Source: Anatilimnocola aggregata
GTDB lineage: Bacteria > Planctomycetota > Planctomycetia > Pirellulales > Pirellulaceae
Assembly (NCBI RefSeq): GCF_007747655.1
Contig: NZ_CP036274.1
Location: 5,828,001 to 5,892,000 of the forward strand
Direction of reading: 5' to 3'
DNA length: 64,000 nt
Position numbers and translations under genes: made by a program. The notes beneath the pieces were generated by a model. That model searched no databases. It saw nothing but the letters and a program-made list of their open reading frames with translations, and was not told the DNA's origin. Shown here piece after piece: positions 20,787 to 38,766 of the stretch (positions are counted from its first letter, which is position 1; each line of letters opens with the position of its first letter).

Positions 20787-20888
20787 TAGCGTTCCTACTT
20801 CTCCCGCTCAAACGTCACCAGGATAGCCACCAGTCGGCATCGAGGTGTTCTTCATCATTCACTTACTATCCCCTGCTTCAGAGAACGT

Positions 20889-21470: not shown

Positions 21471-21537
21471 CGTGCAAGCTCCATCACTTCCCGGCACAGG
21501 TACTCTGCGTAGTAACCGACAATGGGCATGGCGTCAT

Positions 21538-21837: not shown

Positions 21838-22058
21838 CTGTTGGGTGCGTCCTGTGCTTCGGGAAAGAATCGCCGCAAACGCCGTGATTCTATCGGGTTC
21901 AGCACTGGGCCGGTAGAATCGTCCGCTAGTCGCCTTAACCTGCGAAGGAAAACCATCTCTTGAAGATGATCGCAGCCTCAGGCTTACGGGTTTCGCCTGT
22001 TTCAATGACAGGCTAGGCTACCCGTGCCTCAAACGAGCGAACATCAAAGGATGACAAC

Positions 22059-22349
22059 GTGGCGAAGAAGAACATGAACGGTCGGAAACCAAGCGGAATG
22101 GCGGGGATCGCAGTTACCGAAGACTCGACTGATCCAAGTCAGGCCCCCGAAGTGATGACGAGCGCAGCACCCACACCCGAAAAGAGTCCCGCACGTCCCA
22201 AGGTCAAAGCGAAAGAAGAACAGCCGTCCAACGGCAATGTCGGAATCGGCGACATTCGTAAGGCGGCGGCATTTGCCAACTCGGTCGGTGGACTGGAGAA
22301 GGCCATCGCCCTACTCCAAATCCTGAAAGTGGCGAAAGAAGTGCAGTAG
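22059..22349 (+). CDS. hypothetical protein, 96 residues
   Basis: Not recognised. It starts at GTG 22059, five bases after AAAGGATG. The first 65 residues are Pro/Ala/Lys-rich and probably disordered; residues 66-96 form a helix (IRKAAAFANSVGGLEKAIAL). The same kind of C-terminal helix (AANxVGGLxxA) occurs in many planctomycete small proteins. It lies four bases before the DoxX-like gene and is the first of a three-gene plus-strand operon. Confidence 0.6.
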   Translation: MAKKNMNGRKPSGMAGIAVTEDSTDPSQAPEVMTSAAPTPEKSPARPKVKAKEEQPSNGNVGIGDIRKAAAFANSVGGLEKAIALLQILKVAKEVQ

Positions 22350-22353
22350 TCGA

Positions 22354-22761
22354 ATGACCACTGAGAATTGGATGTACGGAATTAAGGCGGCGTCCAAGTA
22401 TCTGCTAGCGATCTTGATGATCGGTGTTGGCACGTTGCATTTCGTGCAGCCCGAATTCTTCGTCAAGATCATGCCGCCGTACCTGCCTTGGCATCTGGAA
22501 CTGGTCTACCTCAGCGGCGTTTTTGAAGCTGCATTAGGATTGGCACTTCTCGTTCCACGAACTTCACGGCTGGCGGCATGGGGGATTATCGCTCTGTTGA
22601 TCGCCGTCTTTCCCGCAAACATCTATCTCTACCAGCATCAGGAATTGCTTCCCGCCTCGCCGATGGTTCACTTTCTTCGATTGCCGCTCCAGGCCGTGTT
22701 CATTTTGTGGGCGTACTGGCACACGAAGCCGAGTCTTGAAGAGAAGAGCGAGAGTCGATGA
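22354..22761 (+). CDS. DoxX-like membrane protein
   Basis: A 135-residue protein with four membrane segments and DoxX-like features: YLLAILMIGVGTLHFVQPEFF at the start, then LSGVFEAALGLALLVP, ALLIAVFPANIYLY and LQAVFILWAYWH. The family function is poorly known; some members act with oxidases. The gap to the gene before is four bases, and it overlaps the following gene by four bases (ATGA). A 3' fragment of a second copy lies at 17446-17485. Confidence 0.8.
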   Translation: MTTENWMYGIKAASKYLLAILMIGVGTLHFVQPEFFVKIMPPYLPWHLELVYLSGVFEAALGLALLVPRTSRLAAWGIIALLIAVFPANIYLYQHQELLPASPMVHFLRLPLQAVFILWAYWHTKPSLEEKSESR

Positions 22762-23459
22762 AGCCCTTCATCCCAGCCGAGGAGTTGAAGAAGAACTACG
22801 GCGTGTTCGGCCACTTCTATTCGGTCGAACTTGCCTCAAAGGAAATCGTCGAGTGCCGAAGCGTCTTGGAACTCGTTTCTAAGCCTCGAATCCCGAAGGA
22901 CCATTCGGAGTTGTCGCTACTCAGCCCCGACGCCGTGTTCGTAATGATGAACCCTGGCTCGTCGAGGCCATTGGAAGTGGTCAACAACCGCATTTGTGCC
23001 AAGGACATTCACAAGCTGACGATCTCACTGGTTCCAACCAAACCTGACACAACGCAGTACCAAGTGATGCGGTTGATGCACTTTCGTGAGTGGCGGCACG
23101 TTCGGGTTCTGAATCTTTCCGACGTGCGCAGTTCCAAAAGTCCCGAATTCATTAAGCTCTTCCAGCGGTTGGAGAAGGATGAAGCACTCGACTCGCATTC
23201 CATTTTCTCCGACGCCCGGACGGTTGAACTGGCGATCAAACTTCCCAAGAAGAGAACGACGCCGTTAGTCCTCGCCTGGGGAATGAGCGAGAAGCTGAAC
23301 CCGTTGATCGAACGATGTTTGGGGAGGCTGCCTCCCAAGAGCCGGATCAAGGGCCTATTGGAGCAGGGAACTGCTAATAAGTACCGTCATCCACTGCCTT
23401 CTCTCCAGAAGGATCAGCGTGTTTGGCTTGAAAATATGGTGCGGCATTTTGAGGAGTAG
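22758..23459 (+). CDS. DUF1643-like protein
   Basis: A 233-residue soluble protein. Residues about 60-200 resemble the DUF1643 family: FVMMNPGSSRPLEVVNN (compare LLNPS..D), then VRVLNLSDVRSS and PLVLAWGMSEKL. The function of the family is unknown. The start overlaps the stop of the DoxX-like gene (ATGA), so the three genes 22059-23459 form one transcription unit. The assignment rests on pattern recognition and is tentative. Confidence 0.55.
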   Translation: MKPFIPAEELKKNYGVFGHFYSVELASKEIVECRSVLELVSKPRIPKDHSELSLLSPDAVFVMMNPGSSRPLEVVNNRICAKDIHKLTISLVPTKPDTTQYQVMRLMHFREWRHVRVLNLSDVRSSKSPEFIKLFQRLEKDEALDSHSIFSDARTVELAIKLPKKRTTPLVLAWGMSEKLNPLIERCLGRLPPKSRIKGLLEQGTANKYRHPLPSLQKDQRVWLENMVRHFEE

Positions 23460-23572
23460 AGTGTTACGAGAAGATTTTGCTTCGCACTTGATAGCAAGTA
23501 GAATCACTCGCACGAGTTGAGACGGAATGTCTTCCAGCCAAGGTGGGCTTCTCCAGTTCACGGAGTCCGCTC

Positions 23573-23868
23573 ATGCCCACCGATGCGATCACGGTTCGAG
23601 ACTTGCGCCGATTGTGGAAACCGCACAAAGAGCGGCTGAACGGCAGCGCCGCCGAGCATCCGACGAACATCCGTTTTCATCGGGCGTGCAGTTGGATGCA
23701 GAGAGCCGAGCAGGCAGTCAAGGACGATCTTGACTTGGCGCTGCTGAGCCAGTGGATCGCTTTCAACGCACTCTACGGGCAGTGGGATCACGAGGTTCGA
23801 GAGCCGCTCGCTGATAGCGTATGTTGGAGGCACTTTCTCGAAAGGATGCTCGACCTCGACAAGGGAAG
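23573..23868 (+). pseudogene. HEPN-like gene truncated by the IS21 element
   Basis: The first 98 codons of a gene that is cut at 23868 by the left end of the IS21 element. ATG 23573 has GGAG seven bases upstream. The sequence (RFHRACSWMQRAEQA, then LALLSQWIAFNALYGQWD, then WRHFLERMLDLD) resembles a family of HEPN-like proteins of about 200-250 residues. The C-terminal half, which normally follows the LD motif, is not found on the far side of the IS. The frame runs on to 23971 inside the element. It is probably inactive. Confidence 0.65.
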
Positions 23869-23903
23869 TGTAAACGACGGTCGAATAGTGCAGCGCGCGG
23901 CGG
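23869..23903 (+). repeat. IS21 left terminal inverted repeat
   Basis: 35 bp, identical to the reverse complement of 26463-26497. It ends CAGCGCGCGGCGG. Confidence 0.93.
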
Positions 23904-23972
23904 TTGAAAAGTGTGGCGCTGAGGTGGGGAAGGGTCTCAGTCTAAATCAGGGTGTTGGGGCATTCCAGTAAG

Positions 23973-24002
23973 AATCCTTCCTCCTCCGGAGGAGGAAGGA
24001 TT
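23973..24002. terminator. 30-bp perfect palindrome downstream of istB
   Basis: AATCCTTCCTCCTCC joined directly to its reverse complement GGAGGAGGAAGGATT, with no spacer. It lies 20 bases beyond the stop of istB, inside the element, and probably ends the istAB transcript or blocks read-through. Confidence 0.6.
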
Positions 24003-24021
24003 GCGACGGTTGTAACGACGG

Positions 24022-24843
24022 CTAGGATTCTGCCGTTTCATCGGCGGGTGACAAGGATGAGGTCGCCGGTTTCGGGCGCGATCCTTTGCGGCGGCGCCGC
24101 GCGTCTTGCAAGCGATAACTTTCGCCGGTCGATTCGAGGATGTGGCAGCGGTGTGTCAGCCGATCGAGCACGGCGCCGGTCAGGCGCTCGCTGCCCAGGA
24201 CTTCGGTCCATTGCTCGAACGGCAGATTGGTGGTCACGATCAACGATTGGCGTTCGTAAGCGCTACTGATGACCTCGAAGAGCAACTCCGCGCCCAGCTT
24301 ACTGGCGGGGACGTAACCCAGCTCATCGAGGATCAGCAGATCGAACTTGGCTAGTGACGACTTCATCCGCAGCAGCGTCCGTTCTTCTCGGGCTTCCATA
24401 AGTTGCGTGATCAGTTCCGTCACGCGGCAGAAGCGGACCCGTTTGCCCCGCTGACAGGCGGCAATGCCAAGCGCGATGGCCAGGTGCGTCTTCCCCGTGC
24501 CCGGATGCCCGAGAAAGATCACCGACTCGCGGCGTTCCACGAACTCGCACCGCAGTAGTTCTGCCACCAGCACGCGATTGAGCGAGGGCTGGGCGGCGAA
24601 GTCGAAATCACCAGGCGATTTCAGGTTGGGAAAGCGCGCTGACTTGAGCCGCCGCTCGCTGGCACGCTTCTCACGGTTGAGTAACTCCAGCTCACACAGT
24701 TGCAGCAGAAAGCCCAGATGATCGACGTTCTCCGTCGCACACCGCTGGGCCGTTTTCTCGCAGCCCTCCAGGAACGACGGCAACCGTAGGGCCTTCAAGT
24801 GATGCTTGAGCAGCACCGTGCTTTTGGTTTCGAGAGATTTCAT
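24022..24843 (-). CDS. istB: IS21 transposition helper ATPase
   Basis: A 273-residue DnaC-like AAA+ ATPase that assists IstA. Walker A is GHPGTGKTH (112-120) and Walker B is LLILDELGY (about 168-176). The N-terminal LKHHLKALRLPSFLE and the segment NLPFEQWTEVLGSERLTGAVLDRL are typical of IstB. The start overlaps the stop of istA by four bases. The gene looks intact. Confidence 0.95.
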   Translation of the reverse strand: MKSLETKSTVLLKHHLKALRLPSFLEGCEKTAQRCATENVDHLGFLLQLCELELLNREKRASERRLKSARFPNLKSPGDFDFAAQPSLNRVLVAELLRCEFVERRESVIFLGHPGTGKTHLAIALGIAACQRGKRVRFCRVTELITQLMEAREERTLLRMKSSLAKFDLLILDELGYVPASKLGAELLFEVISSAYERQSLIVTTNLPFEQWTEVLGSERLTGAVLDRLTHRCHILESTGESYRLQDARRRRKGSRPKPATSSLSPADETAES

Positions 24844-26354
24844 AACACACCTCCCGTCGTCAGCGCGCAGGTCAGTTCACGGTAAGACAGGAGATTGGGA
24901 GGAGGGATCGAGTGCGACTGCAGATGCGGATGATTGTCCAGCCGAAACCACCGCGTCGGCTCTTCCAGTCCCTGCTGCACGAGCAGCCGAATCGCATCGA
25001 CGGCCAGAACGTCGATCTCCAGTGCCCGCTCAATCGCCGCAGTTAATGCAGCCAGCGAGATAGTCTCCAGCAGCCGCAAGGTTTTGATGAACTCCCGGCG
25101 GCCGTGTGCGCCGCCATCTGCTTCCAGACGCCGCCGGAGGAGATCGAAACAGTCCGGCAAGCCCCAGTTTTCCAGGGGTTTCGCGAAGTCCAAGCCCCCT
25201 GGCTTCCGCTCCAAGAGTGCCAGGTAATGCAGCGGGTTGTAATGGACCTGCTCCTTCGACCAGTCGCGTGGATGCTGGGCAACCAACTTGTCGTTAACGA
25301 CCAGCCGAACTTCCTCCAGGCCGCCAATTGCGGTCACTTTCTGATGAGCATACTGCGTCGGCACCGAGTAATCGTTGCCGTCGAAGCGAACCAAGGAAAG
25401 AGAGTTGGCCTGGGCCGGTTCGACTCGCCGCGCTTCAAAGCCCGACTTCGGCAGCGGCAACAACGCAGCCTGCTCCTCTGCCAACAACGTGGCTTTGTTC
25501 GCCGGTTGTCCGCGTAACTGGCGTTCCAGATCTTCACAGCACTGCCGCTCGAGTTCGGCATTCAGCACTTCCAGGCTGCCGGTCCGTGGTACCGGCACCA
25601 GGAAGTTCCGCCGCGCGAAACCGATGAGGTTCTCCGTATGCCCCTTCTCCATCGGCCGTCGCACCAGGCAGAAGTGATGCTCAAACAGATAATGACTCTG
25701 CAGCCGTAGGAACTCACGCGTCGGCGTGTCACCCCGTTTCCCCACGAACCGGGCCACAGCAATCCGGCTGTTGTCGTAGCTGATCCGGCGGGGCACGCCG
25801 CCGAAGAACTCAAAGGCCCGCTGATGGCCCGCTTGAAACGTCTCGGTGCATTCGCGAGGAAAGACCTGCACGAAGAACGCGTCGCTGTACGGCAACGACA
25901 TGACGCAGTACGCGACTTTCGTCGGCATGCCTTGCAGCACCACCTCCGCTTCGCCGAAGTCGAACTGGGCTTCGCCCGGTTGATGCGACAAGGGTAAGAA
26001 CACCTCCGCCGTGGTCGTTCGCCACTCCCGCACGACCTCGCCGACCACCGTGATCCCGCCGGTGTAGCCATGCTCGGCACGCAGGCGGTCGAAGATCCGT
26101 TTAGTGGTGTGGCGCTGCTTGCGGGGCGCCGTTTTGTCCTGCTCCAGGATCTCGTGGATGATCGGCAGGAACGGATCGAGTTTGGGCCGCTCCCGGGGCA
26201 GACGTTGTCGATAACCGGGCGGCTCAGGGTGCTGCAGGATCTTTTCGAGGGTCTGCCAGTGAAGGGAAAATTCCCTGCAAACCGCTCGTTTGGATTTCTT
26301 CTCGGTCAGGACAAGACGACGGATTTCGGTCCAGTTATGCATATCTCGCAGCAT
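24840..26354 (-). CDS. istA: IS21 transposase
   Basis: A 504-residue DDE transposase. A helix-turn-helix region lies at 1-45 (KSKRAVCREFSLHWQTLEKI). Catalytic residues are visible as Asp 132 (AQFDFGEA), Asp 194 (SYDNSR) and Glu 241 (KGHTENLIGFARR). A Mu-type beta-barrel region follows (SLVRFDGNDYSVPTQYAHQK). The length is usual for the family and there is no internal stop, so the element could be active. Confidence 0.95.
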   Translation of the reverse strand: MLRDMHNWTEIRRLVLTEKKSKRAVCREFSLHWQTLEKILQHPEPPGYRQRLPRERPKLDPFLPIIHEILEQDKTAPRKQRHTTKRIFDRLRAEHGYTGGITVVGEVVREWRTTTAEVFLPLSHQPGEAQFDFGEAEVVLQGMPTKVAYCVMSLPYSDAFFVQVFPRECTETFQAGHQRAFEFFGGVPRRISYDNSRIAVARFVGKRGDTPTREFLRLQSHYLFEHHFCLVRRPMEKGHTENLIGFARRNFLVPVPRTGSLEVLNAELERQCCEDLERQLRGQPANKATLLAEEQAALLPLPKSGFEARRVEPAQANSLSLVRFDGNDYSVPTQYAHQKVTAIGGLEEVRLVVNDKLVAQHPRDWSKEQVHYNPLHYLALLERKPGGLDFAKPLENWGLPDCFDLLRRRLEADGGAHGRREFIKTLRLLETISLAALTAAIERALEIDVLAVDAIRLLVQQGLEEPTRWFRLDNHPHLQSHSIPPPNLLSYRELTCALTTGGVL

Positions 26355-26462
26355 GGGCTACGCTCGCGGATCGTAAGGCTTGAGACGCTGGGAAGCCTCA
26401 AATCTGCCTTACGGATTCTCACGAGCAGGGCTAGCGCTGCACTTTTCGACCGACCATCGGCT

Positions 26463-26497
26463 CCGCCGCGCGCTGCACTATTCGACCGTCGTTTACA
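26463..26497 (-). repeat. IS21 right terminal inverted repeat
   Basis: 35 bp, the exact reverse complement of 23869-23903. Confidence 0.93.
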
Positions 26498-26555
26498 ATC
26501 GAACTATCACGAGTACTTCGCGTTAGTCACGCATGCCCACTTCACTTGGCCTCGG

Positions 26556-27428
26556 ATGCAAATCATCTACGACTTGCTGCAGTTCTGGGAGCTATTCCTC
26601 CGAAACCAGACGACACTCGCATGCGAGGAGTTCTGCACAGCGACACGCGACCTCCTCTGGGGCCGGATTATGCATGGCCGTTTCGGGGCCGTCTCGATCC
26701 CCAAGGTTGAGCCAGCGCCTCTTCCAAGATTTCCCGATAGCCCAACCGTTCGCATCCAACGGAAGAATGTCGAGGACCGACTTGACTTGATCTGTCGACG
26801 GCTTCGTGAGTACGACGAAAAGCGGACCGCATTGACAGAGTTCACGCCCAGCGACCTTGATCTCAAATCGCCGAAACATGCGGGCTTCATGCTGGCCAGC
26901 GCGAACTACAGTGACCACCTCACTTCGGTGCTTTCAGAGTTGGTCCACCTGAATGACAATGTGAGCAAATGGCTTCAGTCGGTCAGACAGTCGAAGCACC
27001 AAACCAACGTAATCGAAAAGATGAAGCCCAAAGCCATCGCCGGGTGCTTCGTTAACACAGCAAAACATGGATTGCGATCCGATTCGAAGAACGCAGTGAT
27101 CGATTTTAAAGCGCTAATCTTCGGGGAGGAAACAGTCGCCGGCCAGACTTCAGACAAGATTCTCGACGAAACAGCGATTATCAACTTCGACGGTAAAGGC
27201 TTTGATGCGGCCACTATAATTGACGACCTACTCCAACTTTGGGATTTGTTTCTTCGATACCACACCGATGTCGACAGCACAAAACTTCAGGAAGTGTTGG
27301 CAGTCCGGTTTCATCAGCGAATTGGAACCAAACGTTACTCGCTCGTACTTGGCCCTGGCTTTGCCAAGCGCCTCGAAGAACTCAACGACGAGCGAGCTTC
27401 GATGGAGAAGCTTTCATGGGGTAGCTAG
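26556..27428 (+). CDS. hypothetical protein with internal repeat, possibly 5'-truncated by the IS
   Basis: A 290-residue frame to the right of the IS21 end. ATG 26556 lacks a ribosome binding site and the frame is open back into the IS, so the original start may have been lost. It contains an internal repeat: IIYDLLQFWELFLRNQT at residues 3-19 recurs as IIDDLLQLWDLFLRYHT near 226-242, each followed by a basic/aromatic stretch. No family is recognised. It does not look like the missing half of the HEPN-like gene on the other side of the IS, which suggests rearrangement. Confidence 0.5.
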   Translation: MQIIYDLLQFWELFLRNQTTLACEEFCTATRDLLWGRIMHGRFGAVSIPKVEPAPLPRFPDSPTVRIQRKNVEDRLDLICRRLREYDEKRTALTEFTPSDLDLKSPKHAGFMLASANYSDHLTSVLSELVHLNDNVSKWLQSVRQSKHQTNVIEKMKPKAIAGCFVNTAKHGLRSDSKNAVIDFKALIFGEETVAGQTSDKILDETAIINFDGKGFDAATIIDDLLQLWDLFLRYHTDVDSTKLQEVLAVRFHQRIGTKRYSLVLGPGFAKRLEELNDERASMEKLSWGS

Positions 27429-27659
27429 CTCCAGCGATTCCAGATAATCACCTACTGCGGAATGCTGCATCACGCGCCGGGACGCTGCCGGCACCTCGGC
27501 TCGCTTCGACCGCCACGCCGCCATCCCAAGCCATTCCTCGATCAACTCGACCGGAACGCGCACCTCGATCACTCCCCGCTGCCCGCCACTTCGAAGTGAG
27601 CCCTCGCGCTCTCGGTTAGTATCTGCGTCCCGACCAGTACCCCGGACCGAACCAAGCAA
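27414..27659 (-). CDS. doubtful ORF overlapping a dispersed repeat
   Basis: An 81-residue frame that starts inside a dispersed repeat (27606-27653) and overlaps the previous gene's end. The central part (VIEVRVPVELIEEWLGMAAW) looks coding, and codon choice is good over about 55 codons. The N-terminal part is repeat sequence, so this is probably the 3' fragment of an older gene. No function assigned. Confidence 0.25.
   Translation of the reverse strand: MLGSVRGTGRDADTNREREGSLRSGGQRGVIEVRVPVELIEEWLGMAAWRSKRAEVPAASRRVMQHSAVGDYLESLELATP
27606..27653 (+). repeat. dispersed 48-bp repeat, copy 1
   Basis: Begins GCGCTCTCGGTTAGTATCTG and continues CGTCCCGACCAGTACCCCGG. It is almost identical to 31525-31572 and recognisably related to 28242-28289. 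All three lie outside genes or at gene ends. Confidence 0.8.
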
Positions 27660-27666
27660 CCTGTTC

Positions 27667-28062
27667 TCAACTCAAGCCGCGGCCGCTTAGATAGCTGAGC
27701 AAATGCCGAATGTCGACCGGTTTGGCCAGGTGAAGGTCGATTCCGGCGGCGGCCGATGCATCAACTGCTTCCGGCTGGCTGTGCCCAGTGATGGCGATGA
27801 TCACAATCTCTTCAGCATCTGGCATAGCTCGCACGGCCTCAGCGACCTGATAGCCATTCATGATGGGGAGGCCCAGATCGAGCAAGATTACATCCGGGCG
27901 ACGAACGTTGGCAATCTGCAAGGCCTGGAGCCCCGTGTAAGCCACGTCTACGGAGTGTGCGCACTGGATTCGAAGGAGCATTGCCAAACTGTCAGCAGCG
28001 TCCTTGTTGTCCTCGACGACTAATATCCGCAGAGGCGTGTGAGATTCAAAAGTGTCAGACAC
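27667..28062 (-). CDS. stand-alone response-regulator receiver domain
   Basis: A 131-residue CheY-like receiver without an output domain. It has the acidic pocket VVEDNKD (residues 15-21), the phosphoacceptor Asp in ILLDLGLP (about 59), Thr/Ser in IIAITGHS and the conserved Lys in LAKPVD (about 113). Single-domain receivers of this kind often pair with hybrid histidine kinases encoded elsewhere; none is next to it. Dispersed repeats flank it on both sides. Confidence 0.9.
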   Translation of the reverse strand: MSDTFESHTPLRILVVEDNKDAADSLAMLLRIQCAHSVDVAYTGLQALQIANVRRPDVILLDLGLPIMNGYQVAEAVRAMPDAEEIVIIAITGHSQPEAVDASAAAGIDLHLAKPVDIRHLLSYLSGRGLS

Positions 28063-28424
28063 GGATTGTCCTTGGCGAAGGAGAGGAGAGCACCAGAGTT
28101 TTAGCCTGAATCTAGCGCGCCTTGGCTAGTATTCGCAGCCCGGCAAGCGGGACGACAGCATCCACTGCTTCGGGCTAGCTCGGCCAAACTGGATGTCGTC
28201 GGTGGGGTGCCTACCGCGTTGGGAACCTGCAGTAATGGTGACCACGCTCTCCAGTTAGTATCTGCGTCCCGTCCAGCATCCTGAACGCAATTGAGCCCAA
28301 AACTGAGTTAACCGGCTGACATATATTTGCGCTCTCGTTACTCGGAACGCGTAGTCTGACTGCACCACGCAGACTGAAGCCCTGAACGCAATTCACATCG
28401 GGTGCTGCTATCAAAAATCGGTCA
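28063..28424. other. intergenic stretch with diverged dispersed repeat
   Basis: A 362-bp gap between two minus-strand genes. It holds a diverged copy of the dispersed repeat (28242-28289). A weaker related string near 28119-28150 includes GGCTAGTATTCGCAGCCCGG. No gene or tRNA was found in it. Confidence 0.5.
28242..28289 (+). repeat. dispersed repeat, diverged copy 2
   Basis: The core GTTAGTATCTGCGTCCCG is exact; flanking bases differ at several places from copies 1 and 3. Confidence 0.7.
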
Positions 28425-29624
28425 TCACAAGCACTTGAGCCGATGCTTCGCAAATGCAGCGGCATATTTGTGCCTCATTTCCTGCATGCAAACGATGTCC
28501 ATGTGCTGGACTTTGGAAGACGACAAAGTATCGACGTCCTGCTCAAAAGTGCTGGCCTCTTTTGTTCCCAGGTCACGGATTAGCATTCGAGTCGCAGCGA
28601 TCAAATAATGAGGTTCCTTGTCGAATGCGATCTCATAGTGAAGCACGGCTTGTCTCAACTGATCGATTTGACCACTTTTGCTTTGCCTCAGTGACTTCGC
28701 CAACCATGCTTTCATTCGGTACAAGTGGGCTAGGGTCGCTGGGCTTGCGTCATTACACCTGTCTTCAACGTCCTTGATCAACCTTGCGGCGAGTTTTAGT
28801 TCACCAGCCTGAATACACATTTGGGCGCGATGCATCATCTGTTCAAGAGTAGCGTCACCAGTCGGTCCGAAGGCTATGGGATCGGTCTCGCGAATCTGCT
28901 CGTAGCAAAATGCTGCACCTGCGAAATTCCTGTCGGCAAGGGCAAACGCGTTCGGACTAATGCGATCACCAGGTCGTGACCAAAATTCCATGCCCGGAGA
29001 GTTAAAAAAAAGCGCCGACTGAATCTCCGAAATACTTGCGGTGTCATAGCAATCCAACTTGCTGATGCACTGATATGCAAGTTCTCGGCAGAAACGCGGC
29101 ATCGCTCGCGGCCCGCTGAAGCTCCAGTAGCAACCTGGCAAGTTGGCCGCAAGGATGCCAACATCTCGGACTTGTGGCTTCGTGAGTTGTGGCAGAAGCA
29201 GTTTAACGGCCTGAAGATCATTGTGCATCTGCTGCAAGTTGTCAAAGGTACGTCGAATCACGAATTCGGTTGCGAGCCAATAGCTCTGTACGAGCTTGAC
29301 ATGGCTGGATATTCGTTCGACTAATTCATCGCAACGCCGCTCATACGCATGCTTCGCAGCATTCGAGGTAATCTCATTTAGCGGCTTCCAGACGCTCATG
29401 CACGAGCAGTCAATCTCGGAGACGTCGATACCAAGTGCATGAGCCAATGCAATCCTCGTCACGGCGGATTGCGCGCTATTCCCCTTAAAGAATCGCAATA
29501 TCGTTCGCTCATTCACGCCGGACAGCGCCTCTAAGTCACGAAGCCGCAAAGCTGTTGCAGCAAGGATCTCCTTGGCGCGATTGCCTGCTTCAACTTTGGG
29601 GTCTCGGAACGTTTCATCGCTCAT
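28425..29624 (-). CDS. helix-turn-helix (XRE-type) protein with helical repeat region
   Basis: A 399-residue protein. Residues about 12-65 form a helix-turn-helix like that of XRE repressors (LRDLEALSGVNERTILRFFK). The remaining 330 residues are all-helical with TPR-like spacing (GAAFCYEQIRE, ELKLAARLIKDVEDR, QAVLHYEIAFDKEPHYL). This fits a regulator with a TPR-like sensing domain. ATG 29624 has a strong GGAGGA site; the upstream frame extension lacks one. It is divergently transcribed from the VOC-like and ComB-like genes and is a likely regulator of them. Confidence 0.6.
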   Translation of the reverse strand: MSDETFRDPKVEAGNRAKEILAATALRLRDLEALSGVNERTILRFFKGNSAQSAVTRIALAHALGIDVSEIDCSCMSVWKPLNEITSNAAKHAYERRCDELVERISSHVKLVQSYWLATEFVIRRTFDNLQQMHNDLQAVKLLLPQLTKPQVRDVGILAANLPGCYWSFSGPRAMPRFCRELAYQCISKLDCYDTASISEIQSALFFNSPGMEFWSRPGDRISPNAFALADRNFAGAAFCYEQIRETDPIAFGPTGDATLEQMMHRAQMCIQAGELKLAARLIKDVEDRCNDASPATLAHLYRMKAWLAKSLRQSKSGQIDQLRQAVLHYEIAFDKEPHYLIAATRMLIRDLGTKEASTFEQDVDTLSSSKVQHMDIVCMQEMRHKYAAAFAKHRLKCL

Positions 29625-29774
29625 TTTCCGTCCTCCGCCAATCAGGATGTCGCCGAATGTCGGCAATTGTCGGTGAAGCGCGCTGAATTATCGACGACTT
29701 GCATGAAAAGGCAAGAATGCGTGTCGGTGCGTCCAATTGCACGCCATTTGAAGCCGAACAATTCGAGGTTTGCA
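29625..29774. promoter_or_regulatory. shared divergent regulatory region
   Basis: A 150-bp region between the XRE-type gene and the VOC-like gene. It contains TGTCGCCGAATGTCGGCAAT followed by TGTCGG, three TGTCG repeats spaced about 10 bases apart, next to the regulator's ribosome binding site. These are candidate operator half-sites. No clear -35/-10 pair can be named. Confidence 0.35.
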
Positions 29775-30455
29775 ATGCGGAGTTCTCAAAACCAACGTTA
29801 TCCCGACGCAAATGAGCCGACTGACCGGGGCCTCAATTGGGATAGCTTGGCTGATTTAGCTCTTCCGCACTCAATCCGGAAGATTGTTAGCCGCAATTTG
29901 TCGGATCCGCCGGCGTTCATTCGGCCAGCAATGTCGTTTCGCAGCGCAAGAATTGATCATATCGCTATTGCATTCGCGTCATATGGCGAGCTGCTCGACG
30001 CTGATTTTTCACTTCTTAGAAGCGGCGCGAAGGTAATCGACCCGGTTCATGCATGGCCGACGACTGCAGCAGAATGTAAAGAAGTGCAAACTTCATGGCT
30101 AGATGCTAAATGGATGTCAACGCTGGCTGTGGGCACTCTGCCGATCACGTTACTTGCACCGATGATCCATGGTGACTTGATAAGCCAATATGTTTCGAGC
30201 TGCGGGCGAGCGGACATTCACCATGTCGCGTTTGCCGTGGAAGACATTGACTCAATCTTAGGCGAGGTCGGCCGTGTACTTCCTGAACTCCGACAGATAT
30301 CTGTGGTTGCCATAGATGAAGCGCTGTCACAGGTATTTCTGCGATCGGCTGGCGATCCACGCATCTGTGAGTTGATCGAGCGGCGATCAGGATTCGGTGG
30401 ATTCTTCACCTGTAAGAATATCGCAGCCCTTACGCAAGGGCTACGTCAGGAATAG
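29775..30455 (+). CDS. VOC (glyoxalase-like) superfamily protein
   Basis: A 226-residue protein with two betaalphabetabetabeta-type modules. The first starts ARIDHIAIAFASYGELLDAD and the second DIHHVAFAVEDIDSILGEVG; late residues include CELIERR. His in DHIAIA, His in HHVAFAV and Glu in CELIE are in the positions of VOC metal ligands. It resembles methylmalonyl-CoA epimerase or dioxygenase-type VOC proteins, but the reaction is unknown. ATG 29775 with GAGG seven bases ahead is preferred. The ComB-like gene follows 30 bases downstream. Confidence 0.6.
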   Translation: MRSSQNQRYPDANEPTDRGLNWDSLADLALPHSIRKIVSRNLSDPPAFIRPAMSFRSARIDHIAIAFASYGELLDADFSLLRSGAKVIDPVHAWPTTAAECKEVQTSWLDAKWMSTLAVGTLPITLLAPMIHGDLISQYVSSCGRADIHHVAFAVEDIDSILGEVGRVLPELRQISVVAIDEALSQVFLRSAGDPRICELIERRSGFGGFFTCKNIAALTQGLRQE

Positions 30456-30485
30456 TTCCACTGCACTATAGGTCAGGACTTAAAT

Positions 30486-31400
30486 ATGCATGTATCCTTG
30501 ATGTCGGATGTGGCGAAACTCGTGCACGATCACGAACTTCGATACGATGTGTCGACCATGTGTTCGCTTCCGGAACTAATGGCTAAGCAGTTTCTTTCTT
30601 CCGGTCGCAATCTTATTGTGATTGATACTTTTCGCAATGTTTCGTCGATTACCGTGGCACTGGCCGCGGGCGCTTTGGACGTGATGCTCTTTGGAAAGGG
30701 ACGCGAAAATCTAGAGATGCTGAAAGCTGAAGCAGCTTCTTACAGCGGATTAAAGTTACTAGCGGGTGAGTTTGAAGGTCAACCAATTCCCGGATTCGAC
30801 TGCGGCAATAGCCCGCTCGACTTCTCAGTGGAACGCGTTTCAGGACGGCGAATCTATTACAGCTCTACGAATGGCGGAGCTGCCGTTCAATCCGCACTTT
30901 CACTCACTAAAAAAGAGCTTGTGCTCGGCTGCATCCTAAATGGTGCTGCAATTGGTCGCGCCATTGCCAGCGGTCATTTGCCCCTTCCACTCATGATTGT
31001 TTGCGCCGGATTCCGAGGTGGCTTCGCGATCGAGGATTGCCTGACCGCCGGGCAGATTCTCTTGGTTGCACGTAGTCATGGTGCGGACTTAGGCATACTA
31101 GATGATTGTTCGTGTGCAGCAATGGAACTTGCAAAGGCGCGGTTTGGCGAAACCGGCAACGTGCTCGAACCGCGCAAACTAGCATACGAACTTGCCCAGT
31201 CTCGATGTGGTTCGGTTCTCACGACCCTCGGCTTAGGAGCAGATATCGCGGCCGCAATCGATGGCACAGGGCTGGACCCTGCGATCGTTATTGGTGCAAA
31301 CGACTGCATTCCTATCATCGATCGACGTTCCTCGCCGCCTCGGATAATTGCCGCGCCGTCCTTCGGTTCGTTTTCAAGTAACCCGAGAAAGCCAAGATGA
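30486..31400 (+). CDS. 2-phosphosulfolactate phosphatase (ComB)-like protein
   Basis: A 304-residue protein with several ComB-family blocks in order: VIDTFRNVSSITVALAAGA (45-63), LLAGEFEGQPIPGFDCGNSP (91-110), YYSSTNGG (124-131), CAGFRGGFAIEDCLTAGQIL (173-192) and LGLGADIAAAID near the C-terminus. ComB removes phosphate from 2-phosphosulfolactate in coenzyme M-type sulfonate synthesis. Here the normally conserved TTNGT is STNGG, and no comA or comC is near, so the substrate may differ. It follows the VOC-like gene by 30 bases and both face the XRE-type regulator. Confidence 0.7.
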   Translation: MHVSLMSDVAKLVHDHELRYDVSTMCSLPELMAKQFLSSGRNLIVIDTFRNVSSITVALAAGALDVMLFGKGRENLEMLKAEAASYSGLKLLAGEFEGQPIPGFDCGNSPLDFSVERVSGRRIYYSSTNGGAAVQSALSLTKKELVLGCILNGAAIGRAIASGHLPLPLMIVCAGFRGGFAIEDCLTAGQILLVARSHGADLGILDDCSCAAMELAKARFGETGNVLEPRKLAYELAQSRCGSVLTTLGLGADIAAAIDGTGLDPAIVIGANDCIPIIDRRSSPPRIIAAPSFGSFSSNPRKPR

Positions 31401-31806
31401 GCTTCTAGCTGGCTCGCCCGCTAGACGATTGCAGGCCAACCAAGCATTGCACTTGCCCCATCTCTGTCAGACGTGTCGCTGCTCCTGTCCCGACTGCAGT
31501 TGGTATTCTCCCAACGCCAACCCCGCGCTCTCGGTTAGTATCTGCGTCCCGACCAGTACCCCGGATCGAACGAGGCTGTTAACCAGATTTCAGGCGAAAA
31601 CAGAGAGCGGAGAGAGTTCTCGGGAGAGCGGCGACGAAAACGGCCGTGGGGCAAAATTAGAGAGCGCGGCAGGGACGTCCGAGAGAGACCGGCTCTCGCC
31701 GTAACTCCTTGCAGAACAATGTGTAAACGTCAAAAGCCGGCAGAACTCTCTGGCCGGCGTTTAGCGTTAACCGTTGGGTCGGTCCAAGTTAGGGCCGAAA
31801 TAGGAG
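31401..31806. other. gene-free stretch before tRNA-Asn
   Basis: 406 bp containing copy 3 of the dispersed repeat (31525-31572) and purine-rich sequence around 31600-31690. There is no credible gene and no visible copy of the tRNA-Asn 3' end. Confidence 0.5.
31525..31572 (+). repeat. dispersed repeat, copy 3
   Basis: Nearly identical over 48 bp to copy 1 at 27606-27653 (differences only near the end: GGATCGAACG against GGACCGAACC). Confidence 0.8.
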
Positions 31807-31879
31807 CTCCCCCCGCAGGACTCGAACCTGCGACCCGGCGGTTAACAGCCGCCTGCTCTACCAACTGAGCTAGAGGGGA
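31807..31879 (-). tRNA. tRNA-Asn (anticodon GTT)
   Basis: A 73-nt cloverleaf on the minus strand. The acceptor is TCCCCTC paired to GGGGGGA with discriminator G. The D-loop is AGCTCAGTTGGTAGAGC, the anticodon loop CTGTTAACC and the T-arm GCAGG-TTCGAGT-CCTGC. No CCA is encoded. Its 3' end points to the accessory region on the left, the side on which tRNA-targeting integrases insert. Confidence 0.95.
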
Positions 31880-32162
31880 TTAGAGACTCATTAAATTAGC
31901 TTGAAGTCCGGGTTTCGACAAGTGAACTACGGGGCATTTTTGGGAACCAATGGGTTTTCAATTCCCCTTGGGCGGGTCGTAGCGAAGAAGGGGTGCAGAG
32001 GGATGGGATGAGAATCCGAACTCGCTGGTTTAATTCGCTGTTTTTACCGACGGCTAGAGGGGAAGAATACGAGTTACGCCGTGGCAGCGTGAAAGGTTCC
32101 CAGCTAACATTGTCATTCCCAGTTTTCCCCTTTCCGCAGCTTTGTTGGCAGGTCTTTTTGCA

Positions 32163-33587
<1,425 letters not shown>

Positions 33588-33764
33588 GAACGTTGCTAGC
33601 GGGCAGATATTTCCCGAAAAATCTGGGCAAATGCTATTTTCAGCCCAAATTGGGTTTGCTGCTTTCGACGCTGCCACCGACAATCCCGCGCAGGCACCCA
33701 ATGGACGGGTACTTGCCAGCAGCGACCGCACGTAGCGCGCTTTTCGTCCACGGAGGGATCTGTG

Positions 33765-34994
33765 ATGTTTTGCGTGAGCATTGTTTTCCGACTCGCTCAA
33801 CTTCGTAATCGTTCTTTGCGCACTCGGCACTTCATTTATGCCGCAGGTTGGGCCTGCTTGTTGGCGGCGCTGACGGTGAAGCCTATTCAAGCCCAACAGA
33901 ACGCGCTCCGGCCGACGACGGTAAAGACGGCACCCACCGAAGCATCGACCGAGGCGGCTCCGGTCGTTCGGTCGATTGCGCGGCAATTGGGCGACGCCTA
34001 CACCCTGTCGAAATCGGCCAAGACCGTCGACGAGTACAGCAGCATTATTGAAACCTGCGAGCGCGTGTTGGCCGAAACGAACAAGGTTGACACAATTAAG
34101 TACACGCACGAGTTGGCCGCATGGAGCTACAACCGCCGCGGTGAAGCCTATGTGCAACTGGCCGCCGAACTGTTTGAGAAAGGAGAAGAGCGACAAGCCA
34201 ACGAACTCGATACGCTTGCCCTCGACGACTTTACACAGGCAATCGGCCACGACAAGACCAAGTGGAAGGCGTTGCACAATCGGGGTGTGAGCTTGGGCTT
34301 ACACGGCAAAATGGATGAAGCCATTGCTGATTTCGATGAACTGCTGCGACTAAAACCCGATCACGTCAACGGCTGGTACAACCGGGGCGAGATTCATGCG
34401 CAACTTGGTCAATTCGATAAAGCGATCGCTGACTTTTCTGCTGCTTTAAAGTTGAAGGCCAACGATCACGGCTCGCTAATTGGCCGAGCAACGGCGCAGC
34501 GGCAACTCGGCAACTACAGCGAAGCGCTCAAGGACATATCGGTTGCATTGAAGCATCAACCCAGCAATGCATTGGCGTATTGCGAACGGGCTGAAATCGA
34601 AATGTCGCTGGGACAATGGCAACTGGCTGCAGAAGACTTTCGGACTGCTGCCAAAGCAGATCCTGAACTGGGCCGCGCCTTTCGAGGTGTTGCCTGGCTG
34701 ATGTCGACTTGCCCTGAGTTGAAATTTCGCAATGCAAAGCTGGCACTAGAAGCTGCTGAAAAGGCAATCGCCCTGGATGGTGCCACCGACTATCGAACAC
34801 TCGATGTCCTGGCGGCCACTCAGGCCAATCTGGGTCAGTTCGAAGACGCACAGGCCAATTTGCTGAAGGCGATTCAGTTCGCCCCGCAAGAGCTGCGCGC
34901 TCCGCTACAATCGCGAATGCGTTTGTATGCAAACGGCGAGCCCTATCGTGAACCGATTCGGCAAGCAGCCGTCCCTGGTAACCTGCCGCGATAG
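33765..34994 (+). CDS. secreted TPR-repeat protein
   Basis: A 409-residue protein with an N-terminal signal or anchor (about residues 20-42, YAAGWACLLAALTVKPIQAQ). At least five TPR units follow, among them LHNRGVSLGLHGKMDEAIAD, WYNRGEIHAQLGQFDKAIAD and GRATAQRQLGNYSEALKD. TPRs mediate protein contacts; the partner is unknown. ATG 33765 has GGAGGG 8-10 bases upstream (a GTG at 33762 is less likely). The aminotransferase gene begins 21 bases downstream, so both are probably one unit. Confidence 0.8.
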   Translation: MFCVSIVFRLAQLRNRSLRTRHFIYAAGWACLLAALTVKPIQAQQNALRPTTVKTAPTEASTEAAPVVRSIARQLGDAYTLSKSAKTVDEYSSIIETCERVLAETNKVDTIKYTHELAAWSYNRRGEAYVQLAAELFEKGEERQANELDTLALDDFTQAIGHDKTKWKALHNRGVSLGLHGKMDEAIADFDELLRLKPDHVNGWYNRGEIHAQLGQFDKAIADFSAALKLKANDHGSLIGRATAQRQLGNYSEALKDISVALKHQPSNALAYCERAEIEMSLGQWQLAAEDFRTAAKADPELGRAFRGVAWLMSTCPELKFRNAKLALEAAEKAIALDGATDYRTLDVLAATQANLGQFEDAQANLLKAIQFAPQELRAPLQSRMRLYANGEPYREPIRQAAVPGNLPR

Positions 34995-35015
34995 TCGCGT
35001 AGCAAGAGCAGCACG

Positions 35016-36155
35016 ATGACCTGGCAACAGCATTGGCGTTTGCGACCTGATACTATCTATCTAAATCACGGCTCGTTCGGCCCTCCTCCGCTTGTCGTGC
35101 AACAATCGCGACGCGAGTGGCAACAACGGCTCGACGAGCAGCCAATGGACTTTTTCGTTCGTCAACTCGAACCTGCGTGGTTCGATGTGCGCGAACAACT
35201 CGCCCGATTTGTTGGTACGACAGGCGCGAATCTGGTCTTTGTCGACAATGCAACAGTCGGCATGAATATCGTCGCCGATTCGTTTCCTCTGCATGCGGGC
35301 GACGAAGTACTGCTGACAAATCATGAGTATGGCGCGGTAGAACGGATCTGGCAGCGCGCTTGCAGCAAAGCCTCAGCTGTGATGACGACCGTCGCATTGC
35401 CCTTGCCATTCACCACGGTTGAGGAGACGGTCGCGAAAATCGTAGAAGCGACATCACCTAATACCAGGCTGATTGTGGTCAGTCACGTTACGTCGCCGAC
35501 AGCGGTCACCTTACCGGTAAGGCAACTTTGCGCTGCGGCGCGTGAGCGCGGAATCGCGGTTTGCATTGATGGTCCCCATGCGTTGGTTCAAGAAGATGTG
35601 GAGTTGGATGCCTTGGGTTGCGACTTTTATGCAGCCAGCTGTCATAAGTGGCTCTGCGCGCCGTTTGGCAGTGGCTTTTTGTTTGCCGCTCCCCAATGGC
35701 AAAAGCATATTCGTCCGCCGGTAATGAGTTGGGGACGACTGCCACCCACCAATCCAGGCCAATGGTCGGATGAGTTTTTGTGGAGCGGCACCCGCGATTA
35801 TTCAGCTTCGCTCGCAATTCCTGCCGCCATCGACTTCATCAACAAGATTGGCGTTGCTGCGTTTCGTGAGCACACTCACGATCTGGCACGTTATGCCCGC
35901 AAGCAGTTGGTCGAACTCACCGGCCAGCAACCCCTTGTTCCCGATGATCCCGCCTGGTTTTGTGCGATGGCTCATGTGCCCCTCACGCCTGGTTCGAGAC
36001 AGCCGCTGCAGGACCAGCTTTGGCTGCAATATCGGATTGAAGTTCCGATCGTTGAATGGAGCGGCAGCCGCTATGTGCGTGTCTCGTGTCATCTGTACAA
36101 CGATCGAGATCAAGTCGATGAACTGGTGCGAGGATTGAAGGCACTGATCTATTGA
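35016..36155 (+). CDS. class V aminotransferase (isopenicillin-N-epimerase-like)
   Basis: A 379-residue PLP-dependent enzyme. YLNHGSFGPPP (15-25) is the typical start, NATVGMN (78-84) and IDGPHAL (184-190) contact the cofactor, and Lys 211 in SCHKWLCAPFGSGFL is the Schiff-base lysine. It belongs with the isopenicillin-N epimerase / cysteine desulfurase-like branch of class V enzymes, but substrates in this branch vary widely. It lies 21 bases after the TPR gene. Confidence 0.85.
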   Translation: MTWQQHWRLRPDTIYLNHGSFGPPPLVVQQSRREWQQRLDEQPMDFFVRQLEPAWFDVREQLARFVGTTGANLVFVDNATVGMNIVADSFPLHAGDEVLLTNHEYGAVERIWQRACSKASAVMTTVALPLPFTTVEETVAKIVEATSPNTRLIVVSHVTSPTAVTLPVRQLCAAARERGIAVCIDGPHALVQEDVELDALGCDFYAASCHKWLCAPFGSGFLFAAPQWQKHIRPPVMSWGRLPPTNPGQWSDEFLWSGTRDYSASLAIPAAIDFINKIGVAAFREHTHDLARYARKQLVELTGQQPLVPDDPAWFCAMAHVPLTPGSRQPLQDQLWLQYRIEVPIVEWSGSRYVRVSCHLYNDRDQVDELVRGLKALIY

Positions 36156-36351
36156 ATGGTGAGTTGCAGTTTCTGACTTGCACGAACCGAAACGTGTCAA
36201 GACTTCTTCCTGGCGCAATTTCTGGCCGATTGGTTGACGCAGCTTCCTAGAGCGATATCCTTACACCAGTATTTTCTGGTCGTCGGCGTCTGGTGCTGAC
36301 AACTAACTTGTCTACGCTCAAAATCTTAATGACCCTGTCAAAGGTTGCAGC

Positions 36352-36795
36352 ATGGGTTTATTCGATGGTCTGCTCAGCGGCATGGAAGGAAATGCTCGCT
36401 TTACGGCGCAAGAAGCATTTGCCGGCATCCTGGTGGGAGCTACGGCCTGCGATGGGCATTTTGCCGATGACGAAGTGCGCGGCCTGGTCTCGACATTGCT
36501 GCGCATGAAGCTGTTTCAGCGAAGTAGCGAAAAGCAGTTCGACGGCATGCTCGATAAACTCGTAGGCCTGGCAAAACGAAATGGTGTGCCCGCACTTGTC
36601 GACCGCTGCATTGAGGCAATGCCGCCCGAACTGCGCGATACGGCCTTTGCAAATGCCTGCAACATTGTGCTGGCCGATGGCGTGGCCGAACAGGCTGAGC
36701 GCGATTTCATCAACGGATTGCAAACCAAGTTGCGACTCGATGCGACGGTTTGTCACACCATCGTCCAGGTGATGGTCATTAAGAACATGGGTTAG
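36352..36795 (+). CDS. TerB-like protein, first of tandem pair
   Basis: A 147-residue all-helical protein of the TerB-like superfamily. It starts MGLFDGLLSG, has GATACDGHFADDEVRGL (a metal-binding-type acidic helix, about 29-45) and NIVLADGVAEQAERDFINGL, and ends IVQVMVIKNMG. AAAGG lies six bases before the ATG. The paralogue at 36834 shares length and all landmarks. TerB proteins occur in tellurite-resistance and stress or phage-response systems, but no other ter genes are nearby. Confidence 0.75.
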   Translation: MGLFDGLLSGMEGNARFTAQEAFAGILVGATACDGHFADDEVRGLVSTLLRMKLFQRSSEKQFDGMLDKLVGLAKRNGVPALVDRCIEAMPPELRDTAFANACNIVLADGVAEQAERDFINGLQTKLRLDATVCHTIVQVMVIKNMG

Positions 36796-36833
36796 GCGTT
36801 CGTACCACGGCAGGTCGCAGAGAAGGTTTTTCC

Positions 36834-37277
36834 ATGGGAATGTTCGACGATATTCTGGGTGGATTTGGAACGCCGCAAGCCTTTGGTCCGCAGGAGGGGT
36901 TTGCCGGCGTGCTGCTCGCCACCGCGGCCCACGACGGTCACCTGGCCGATGAAGAAATGGCCTCGATGTTTAATACGCTCGGCCGCATGAAGCTTTATCA
37001 GCACATGCCCGAACAGCGATTCAAATCGATGATCGATCGCCTGGTGGGTGTGCTCAAGCGAAACGGTCCCGAAGAACTGATGCGTCAATCGGTGGCTGTC
37101 GTTCCGCCCGAACTGCGTGAAACGTGTTTCGCCAGCGCGACGGACTTGATTCTTGCCGACGGAGTCGTCGAGCAAAACGAACGCGACTTAATGCAGCAAC
37201 TGATGATTTCGCTACAAATCGACAGCACCCGGGCAAAGACCATTGTGCAAGTGCTGGTGATTAAGAACAAAGGCTAA
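36834..37277 (+). CDS. TerB-like protein, second of tandem pair
   Basis: A 147-residue paralogue of the gene 38 bases upstream, of exactly the same length. Shared blocks are ATAAHDGHLADEEMASM, DLILADGVVEQNERDLMQQL and the ending IVQVLVIKNKG. Identity judged by eye is roughly one half, so the duplication is old or the pair has specialised. AAGG precedes the ATG by about eight bases. The two are probably co-transcribed. Confidence 0.75.
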   Translation: MGMFDDILGGFGTPQAFGPQEGFAGVLLATAAHDGHLADEEMASMFNTLGRMKLYQHMPEQRFKSMIDRLVGVLKRNGPEELMRQSVAVVPPELRETCFASATDLILADGVVEQNERDLMQQLMISLQIDSTRAKTIVQVLVIKNKG

Positions 37278-37306
37278 GCCGTACACCAGCAACCGAAATA
37301 TCTGAC

Positions 37307-38602
37307 TCAACGCGCAATGGTTTCGTCAAAATTCCAAGCCCAGTTCAGCACATCGCCGTAATCGCTGAAGTACCAATAGGCTTGGCCATAACGCTCGTGA
37401 CGCGTCAAATAAGCACAGGTCTCGGGGCCGCGCCTCTCTTTGACGAGGCGAAACAGGTCGGCAAGTACATCGACATTGCTGCCATAATAGCTGTGGCCAA
37501 GAAAATTAAAGTCAACGGCGGAAACGTCGATCGTGGTGATGCCCGGCACCACGAGAGGTGGATGGGAATCACCCGCGCGCTGCTCGCGATGAAGTGATTT
37601 TGAAATGACTAGAGCCGCGTCGCCAGTGCTTGCATAGAGTGTGACCTGCTCGGCTTGGGCGACCACACCAGGGGCCCACTTCACAAAATCGCTGCAGCCC
37701 ACATCGGGAGCGCAGAACACCAAGTTGGCCAGTGGTTTGCGTGCGAGTTGGGGCAAACGCCCCACTGCTTGCATGACGAGGCGACTTCCCATGCTGTGGA
37801 CGACAACGTTGACGCGAGTGCCCTCTGGAATCTTACTCAACAACTGGTAGAGAAACGTTGTAAAGGGCTGGACCGAAGCAAGGTTTATCTGCTCATCGGT
37901 TTCATAGTTGCCCAATCCCCCTTGCGATGGCCAACAGTAACTGACGACTGCACCATTAAATGGCAGATCGAGCGCGACTTGAGCCGTGCGAATGAGGGCG
38001 GATTCAAAATCGACGTTGAAGCCATGAACGAACAGGAGCAGGTCTTTCTGTCGTGACTGATTGATTTGCCGATTTACCCCCTCCGCCAATTGCTGCCAAT
38101 CGAGCGTGCGAACTTCATCAAACCTTACGTGTTGGAATGGATCGCTTGTAGCGCTGGTTGTCGGCGGCTGTTGGGTTCCTTGCGATTGTTCTCGCTGCGG
38201 ATCTTCACCGCGGCGGCGAAAGGGAATCATGATTTCAGCACGACCGAAATATGGCTCTGCCAACAGCTGATTGCCAAACCGCTGCTGAGTGCCAGTAGCG
38301 GTTTCGGCCAGTAAGCCGCGATTTGTAGCAAAGAACACTTCCCAGGTCGTCGCTTTGTCGCGCGCCCGAATGACAGCCACAGGCTCGTCCAGCACTTCCA
38401 CGAATGGACCCCAGGCGCCGTGCAACAGCGGTCGGTCGGTTGTCTTCAATGTCTCTTCGTAGCGGGTGTCGTAATAGACCGATGGCCGGCGTTTTTTTAC
38501 GATGATGGTCGGCGGCTTGCGGCAGCCAAGGACCGCTGAAAGGGAAATGAGCAGCAGGATAGAAAAACGTAAGCCGGCACTTGCTGAGTTCATTTTGTTC
38601 AT
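37307..38602 (-). CDS. DUF900 alpha/beta-hydrolase lipoprotein
   Basis: A 431-residue protein with a lipoprotein signal ending in the lipobox LSAVLGC, so it is likely membrane-anchored. The hydrolase domain (about 185-400) has FVHGFNVDFESALIRTAQ, SYCWPSQGG and the nucleophile in VVHSMGSRL, as in DUF900. The substrate is unknown. Three in-frame ATGs are near the start; 38602 (or 38593) gives a normal lipoprotein leader. It is convergent with the TerB-like pair, 29 bases away. Confidence 0.75.
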   Translation of the reverse strand: MNKMNSASAGLRFSILLLISLSAVLGCRKPPTIIVKKRRPSVYYDTRYEETLKTTDRPLLHGAWGPFVEVLDEPVAVIRARDKATTWEVFFATNRGLLAETATGTQQRFGNQLLAEPYFGRAEIMIPFRRRGEDPQREQSQGTQQPPTTSATSDPFQHVRFDEVRTLDWQQLAEGVNRQINQSRQKDLLLFVHGFNVDFESALIRTAQVALDLPFNGAVVSYCWPSQGGLGNYETDEQINLASVQPFTTFLYQLLSKIPEGTRVNVVVHSMGSRLVMQAVGRLPQLARKPLANLVFCAPDVGCSDFVKWAPGVVAQAEQVTLYASTGDAALVISKSLHREQRAGDSHPPLVVPGITTIDVSAVDFNFLGHSYYGSNVDVLADLFRLVKERRGPETCAYLTRHERYGQAYWYFSDYGDVLNWAWNFDETIAR

Positions 38603-38766
38603 CCAGCCACAGGTGGAAAGTGCGCTGCAACACTGCCCCAAAAATGCCGGCGAACTTTAGCCACTTTGGGTGAAATGGCCAAGACGAAAAGCTGGATCTT
38701 GAAGGTTGTCGTCCCGCAACTCATGATGGTCTTTCGATCCCCTTCCACCTGTCTGGAGTTGCTGCC

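Follow-up and report, generated by a model that had tools for sequence, protein, structure and literature searches.

What do three adjacent genes do that appear to encode a regulator, a VOC-like protein and a ComB-like phosphatase, and do they belong to sulfonate metabolism? The genes lie at 28425-31400 of a 64,000-nucleotide stretch of Anatilimnocola aggregata DNA (contig NZ_CP036274.1, forward-strand positions 5,828,001 to 5,892,000; hereafter the window), in a genome of 9.0 Mb that forms a single contig. An earlier note on this DNA had proposed a small-molecule pathway under a divergent XRE-TPR regulator, with a link to sulfonate (coenzyme M) chemistry. We find that the three genes are real and that this observation mostly holds; what the trio suggests is a private metabolic add-on and not a pathway for sulfonates. 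The reading we prefer, to which we give a rough probability of 0.45, is that one lineage acquired the trio as an accessory locus, placed between directly repeated elements, and that its regulator would control two enzymes, a VOC metalloenzyme and a phosphatase of ComB type whose substrate would be some phosphate different from phosphosulfolactate. The locus comprises:

28425..29624, minus strand: probable helix-turn-helix regulator, 399 amino acids from the ATG at 29624; a TTG at 29666 would add 14 amino acids
29625..29774, no strand: divergent intergenic region, presumed operator/promoter, 150 bp between the chosen start codons
29775..30455, plus strand: putative VOC-like metalloprotein, 226 amino acids, VOC core from about 29931
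30486..31400, plus strand: divergent ComB-family (PF04029) phosphatase-like protein, 304 amino acids, PF04029 E 1.9e-37

The list of open reading frames confirms three intact, long frames within 28425-31400, at the places and on the strands that had been claimed. The divergent arrangement around 29625-29774 was also described correctly, and both starts are preceded by Shine-Dalgarno-like motifs (GGAGGA before 29624 on the minus strand, GAGGT before 29775 on the plus strand). Only 30 bp separate the VOC-like gene from the ComB-like gene on the same strand. GC content is 51-53% in the three genes, with third-position values of 0.57, 0.49 and 0.50, at the low end among the window's long frames.

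The ComB-like label is clear, as the protein matches PF04029 with 129 bits against a cut-off of 26.4 (E 1.9e-37) and finds the solved structure 1vr0 in the PDB at E 1.3e-17. We aligned it with 37 relatives, namely those from 36 loci (rows L033 and L037 being near-identical strains) and the genome's other copy. It keeps 15 of the 16 invariant columns, including D47, R50, E95, G107-N-S-P110, G130, D184 and D253, as well as 50 of the 69 columns conserved at 75% or more, and it also retains N129 and C173, which are nearly invariant in the family. Three positions that hold one residue in 35 of the 37 relatives differ here: T131 is replaced by G, T176 by F and A51 by N. The first of these yields NGG for NGT, so the altered STNGG motif reported previously is real. 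On the loss of phosphatase active-site residues, which the earlier note had named as fatal to its proposal, the outcome is mixed, with all but one of the invariant positions in place and R96 gone.

The family is common in the order, since the ComB-like query finds matches in 164 of the 196 order genomes sampled (this sample and one of 343 phylum genomes were drawn evenly, overlap, and include the window's own genome). A second ComB-family gene elsewhere in the genome scores better than the trio copy; besides this genome, two order genomes (G151 and G171) have a second match. The trio protein forms a long branch (3.13) in the family tree, grouped with five rows from other phyla at support 87/82, a placement that is itself unsure; with such a branch among rows of other phyla, there is no support for its having arisen by recent duplication of the canonical ComB of this genome.

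Membership of the family brings up the possibility that the protein dephosphorylates phosphosulfolactate, in a sulfolactate- or coenzyme M-type activity. The family name and the solved relatives point that way, yet we consider it highly improbable. All eight 2-phosphosulfolactate phosphatase models that the protein matched scored it under their cut-offs, the best at 112.6 bits against 330 and TIGR00298 at 64.4 against 175.05 (both NCBIfam equivalogs), and conserved ComB-family positions are altered. Moreover, ComA (PF02679) is absent from the genome, although the same search picks it up in B. subtilis and M. jannaschii, two of the 14 named controls; ComC, ComD and ComE were not searched for. 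Because ComA is absent, a sulfolactate role is unsupported, and with the sub-cut-off scores for all eight matched models the sulfonate link drawn previously finds no support. The accompanying remark that no other com genes are present stands for ComA, the sole com gene searched for besides ComB; the second ComB-family gene lies elsewhere in the genome.

Order-wide, the neighbours of ComB-family genes hint at a role other than sulfolactate metabolism. Among 101 frames at 34 of the 36 best-matching loci (L006 gave none and L037 was dropped as a near-duplicate; flanks were short, mostly 1.5 kb on each side), 11 match UbiX-type flavoproteins (12 in a BLAST cluster), and UbiE-type methyltransferases and glycyl-tRNA synthetase have 9 matches each. 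Wherever ubiE is present it is oriented away from comB (9/9 loci), and wherever the synthetase gene is present it lies downstream of comB on the same strand (9/9). These recurrent neighbours, divergent ubiE with ubiX and the co-directional synthetase gene, are seen at L005, L007, L011, L012, L016, L020, L028, L029, L032 and other loci.

VOC proteins are defined by two beta-alpha-beta-beta-beta modules and His/His/Glu ligands. The superfamily is treated in PMC1431709. Judged by its sequence, the product of 29775-30455 is plausibly a VOC member, and a remote one. Outside its own genome the query matches proteins in 3 of the 196 order genomes and 6 of the 343 phylum genomes, all weakly. Nine matching proteins were considered, two of them methylmalonyl-CoA epimerase (MCE)-like by size and pattern and seven of 415 to 427 amino acids with a shared C-terminal stretch; eight of these (both MCE-like proteins and six of the longer ones) were aligned with the VOC protein. 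H27, H115 and E164 are invariant in all nine rows of this alignment. The glutamate of the I-E-L motif in the two MCE-like rows corresponds to Thr in the VOC protein, and this missing fourth ligand would presumably fit a dioxygenase-type set, which, from the structures of MCE and 4-hydroxyphenylpyruvate dioxygenase (HPPD), we take as a lead only. The earlier VOC assignment is plausible but remote: the match to the methylmalonyl-CoA epimerase model TIGR03081 (E 1.3e-4) stays at 22.5 bits against a cut-off of 114.95.

A profile of the nine-row alignment retrieves MCE, glyoxalase and HPPD chains from the PDB, a match driven in part by the other rows. Because a single-sequence structural model was poor, a model was also made from the nine rows, and this shows a VOC-like order of elements. 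In a Foldseek search with the nine-row model, an MCE-like protein and HPPD rank first (3oa4 at E 1.9e-5, with poor TM-scores of 0.29/0.38), and the weaker matches include FosX and a bleomycin resistance protein, at ranks 14, 21 and 36. The latter, together with the divergent regulator, would suit a resistance or binding protein like those for fosfomycin or bleomycin, the locus then being an inducible detoxification unit. We regard this as unlikely, as both the sequence matches and the highest-ranking folds point to MCE-like and HPPD proteins, and we know of no ComB-type phosphatase in such resistance units.

The seven relatives of 415 to 427 amino acids, whose C-terminal part is VOC-like, are found at L041-L043 and L048-L051. 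Two of them, at L041 and L042, were scanned and gave no Pfam or NCBIfam match above cut-off, and phmmer with one protein of this group found no PDB chain at E<=1. These proteins may be HPPD-like, a reading that is our own.

The product of 28425-29624 is likely a helix-turn-helix regulator and plausibly one of XRE type, to judge from weak matches to a PHROG repressor family (E 0.042) and to the prophage protein 3b7h in the PDB (E 0.56). Its long C-terminal part matched no known family, and no TPR family matched at E<=1 in a sequence search, which fold-level likeness to TPR could escape. Of the XRE-TPR designation, the helix-turn-helix is therefore likely, the XRE part is sub-threshold and the TPR part is left without a matching family. 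Outside its own genome, the regulator is matched in 1 of the 196 order genomes, in the helix-turn-helix part (E 5e-4), and twice at E<=0.01 in the 343 phylum genomes, one of these matches containing eight stops.

Whatever goes beyond the layout of the genes, their families and their residue patterns is inferred. In our preferred reading, the helix-turn-helix protein would bind the 150-bp divergent gap and, as a repressor or an activator, control its own gene and the VOC/ComB-like pair, which would be co-transcribed. The VOC protein would act as a metal-dependent isomerase/epimerase or dioxygenase using His/His/Glu, and the ComB-like protein as a phosphatase in which R96F, T131G, T176F and A51N would fit a phosphate that is not phosphosulfolactate. 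The two enzymes may work one after the other on a single small metabolite, either an organic acid or an aromatic compound, which may also induce the locus.

Several observations weigh against this proposal. In the ComB-like protein, R96, which is invariant in 37/37 relatives, is replaced by F, and this loss might end activity, an objection softened by the solved homologue 2z0j (TTHA1438), which has T at this position in the PDB alignment. Beyond R96, 18 more conserved columns differ, and column 142, A in 36 of the 37 relatives, is K. For the VOC protein, a search of PDB sequences with this protein alone gave a best match of E 0.13, to an MCE-like protein, and model confidence was low, with a mean pLDDT of 49.6 from the single sequence and 55.2 from the nine rows. 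The regulator's match to HTH_3 (residues 40-85 of the longer form; E 0.053) is below the Pfam cut-off at 14 bits against 23. Promoter-like sites in 27400-32200 number 3, compared with a mean of 2.9 in shuffles, and are not above chance. Finally, the VOC-ComB pair recurs in nothing that was searched, so the case for a functional link depends on a single genome in which the two genes are neighbours.

The trio was found in none of the other genomes among the 196 of the order or the 343 of the phylum, nor by a DNA-level search of the sister genome G531, the single further genome of this genus. When the VOC and regulator proteins were used as queries, the 36 other ComB-family loci, mostly with 1.5-kb flanks, gave nothing better than E 0.057, and no VOC family matches at least 2 of the 101 ComB neighbour frames among the 25 of 131 families listed, where a single match could hide. 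Relatives of the VOC and ComB-like proteins were absent from viral contigs, those of the regulator and the ComB-like protein from phages, and those of the VOC protein and the regulator from plasmids; the ComB-like query finds two distant Cetobacterium genes in plasmids (34-35% identity, 53% covered). No VOC-ComB pair appears in titles or abstract starts among the matches listed from open-licence literature. Given this lack of recurrence, the trio is an orphan locus and not a demonstrated conserved system; the idea of a conserved three-gene system was rejected, and the conservation on which the earlier note had staked its proposal is not borne out. A defence system was likewise rejected, with no PADLOC defence family in any of the three proteins. 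A regulated small-molecule locus survives as the best reading, with most phosphatase-family positions kept, stripped of its sulfonate link and of its status as a conserved set.

The same data make chance adjacency a serious rival and a real possibility: three unrelated foreign genes, possibly decaying and with no common pathway, would have come to lie together on acquired patchwork DNA beside an insertion element and dispersed repeats. This would explain why co-occurrence was not found in the searches made, and it fits the nearby insertion element at 23869-26497, which has near-identical copies elsewhere in the genome, and the loss of the invariant R96. It also fits the sister species, where the frame upstream of the fumarase gene is unrelated and the stretch lacks a tRNA. 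However, decaying genes brought together by accident sit poorly with three frames that are all intact and long, and with the retention of 15/16 invariant ComB-family columns and of the aligned VOC triad. Moreover, a regulator gene divergent from two closely spaced genes on one strand is an arrangement that functional loci often show.

The description of the trio as an acquired locus between repeats draws on its flanks, where the following features lie:

27602..27657, plus strand: third repeat copy, in the same orientation as the other two
28241..28296, plus strand: direct repeat, left copy bounding the trio; 63% over the 56-nucleotide reference, core nearly identical
31521..31811, plus strand: right boundary, consisting of a repeat core at 31521-31576 and a 290-bp terminal form that reaches tRNA-Asn
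31806..31879, minus strand: tRNA-Asn(gtt) adjoining the terminal repeat, from ARAGORN; Rfam RF00005 at 31807-31879

The repeat core of about 40 nucleotides runs from CGCT through GTTAGTA to approximately CCAGTACC and is strongly conserved, with 18 invariant columns in 15 aligned copies. It occurs at 15 sites in the genome, two of them solitary and the others clustered, with the same orientation within clusters. At a spacing of up to 7 kb, a threshold chosen once the sites were known, there are eight pairs of neighbours, each with both members in one orientation, compared with a mean of 0.17 and a maximum of 4 such pairs in 20,000 random placements. The 290-bp form terminates those arrays that have one. 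With a longer query it is found at five other loci in the genome, and in the coordinates of the window these matches stop at 31811 (three), 31823 (one) and 31779 (one). Of 100 family genomes two have this form, and both belong to the genus (repeat loci L068-L073 are in the window's genome, G000, and L074-L075 in the sister genome G531). One sister-species copy is 74% identical (77% with the tRNA) and lies beside tRNA-Asn with two more same-oriented repeats; the second has a 44-nucleotide tRNA-like match nearby. Among the other 290-bp copies, ARAGORN places a tRNA only at L069, about 12 kb off.

Could these repeats mark mobile modules? attC sites of integrons carry the consensus pair RYYYAAC and GTTRRRY. 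Their structure is covered in PMC8352920. The pair was found at 0/15 repeat sites, and an integron cassette was accordingly rejected. The folding of four repeat stretches was not better than that of shuffled sequences (z 0.41, -0.78, -0.10 and 0.93), and Rfam at gathering thresholds returned the tRNA alone across 20000-40000. When 28 stretches near repeats were scanned for tyrosine-recombinase motifs, the four matches obtained were judged to be noise; no serine-recombinase scan and no genome-wide integrase search were made. Conceivably, though we think it quite unlikely, the trio is the cargo of an undescribed, genus-restricted array moved by a non-integron recombinase, in which directly oriented cores of about 40 nucleotides set apart modules of one to several accessory genes and a 290-bp form, adjoining tRNA-Asn once in either species, closes the array. 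Its payload would be a pathway of two enzymes under its own regulation, with a ComB-family phosphatase redirected to a compound that an HPPD/MCE-like VOC enzyme makes or uses. The same facts would also follow, with no new system, from homologous recombination between the dispersed repeats.

At other sites, the genes that repeats separate or flank include those for an alpha/beta hydrolase, an ABC ATPase, histidine kinases, a sigma factor and a cadherin/RTX-type protein. In one repeat-bounded stretch of the window's genome (L070:4639-7137), KaiC-like and KaiB-like frames, named from their translations alone, are followed by a histidine kinase. In the sister genome, a short frame at L074:36-335, 8 kb from a repeat copy, resembles the tail of a serine recombinase, again by translation alone.

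The trio's immediate neighbour on the left is a module of its own:

27602..28240, minus strand: repeat 27602-27657 (plus strand) and a stand-alone response-regulator receiver gene at 27667-28062 (minus strand; PF00072, E 9.8e-22)

Pieces of this module recur within the genome at 94% identity, 27648-28276 at L070 and 27667-28276 at L068, these two loci being 96.6% identical to each other over 1763 bp. Both ends of the shared piece fall in the window's repeats or no more than 10 bp away, a pattern suggestive of exchange bounded by repeats; the left edge of the piece is also the end of the response-regulator gene (27667), so that this evidence is weaker than it appears. The copies at L068 and L070 have hybrid histidine kinase genes nearby, and the window copy does not. 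Farther left, the insertion element at 23869-26497 has 35-bp terminal inverted repeats and two genes (24022-26354), which we take to be IS21-type istA/istB. It supplies the first ~143 residues of an orphan frame at 26070-27428.

The ComB family takes its name from coenzyme M biosynthesis, yet two of its members occur in this genome, where ComA is absent. A divergent ComB-like copy under what appears to be its own regulator, beside a VOC-like enzyme, offers a handle on other activities of the ComB fold, and the ordered repeats, if they are true module boundaries, would constitute a gene-shuffling arrangement.

Set against known systems, the flanks resemble integron cassette arrays in that accessory modules are set apart by directly oriented repeats, and differ in having no RYYYAAC/GTTRRRY pair at any of the 15 sites, no convincing tyrosine-recombinase motif in the 28 stretches scanned and no folding above shuffles in the four stretches examined. 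With methylmalonyl-CoA epimerase (TIGR03081; PDB 1jc4; the MCE-like 3oa4) the VOC protein shares a weak profile match and the aligned His, His and Glu, whereas it has Thr for the I-E-L Glu, a C-terminal extension and a score far below the cut-off. With HPPD-like proteins it shares the triad, and with the 415- to 427-residue proteins a C-terminal stretch of the form E-x-x-E-R ... GFFT-x-x-N-x-A-x-L; it differs in consisting of one VOC core of about 175 amino acids, 29-31% identical to the six aligned longer rows. The ComB-like protein agrees with the 2-phosphosulfolactate phosphatase family (PF04029; PDB 1vr0, 2yyv and 2z0j) by profile and in 15/16 invariant columns, and departs from it in having GEF for GER, NGG for NGT and CAGF for CAGT, in scoring below the matched equivalog cut-offs, in its genome having no ComA, and in the VOC-like gene at its side.

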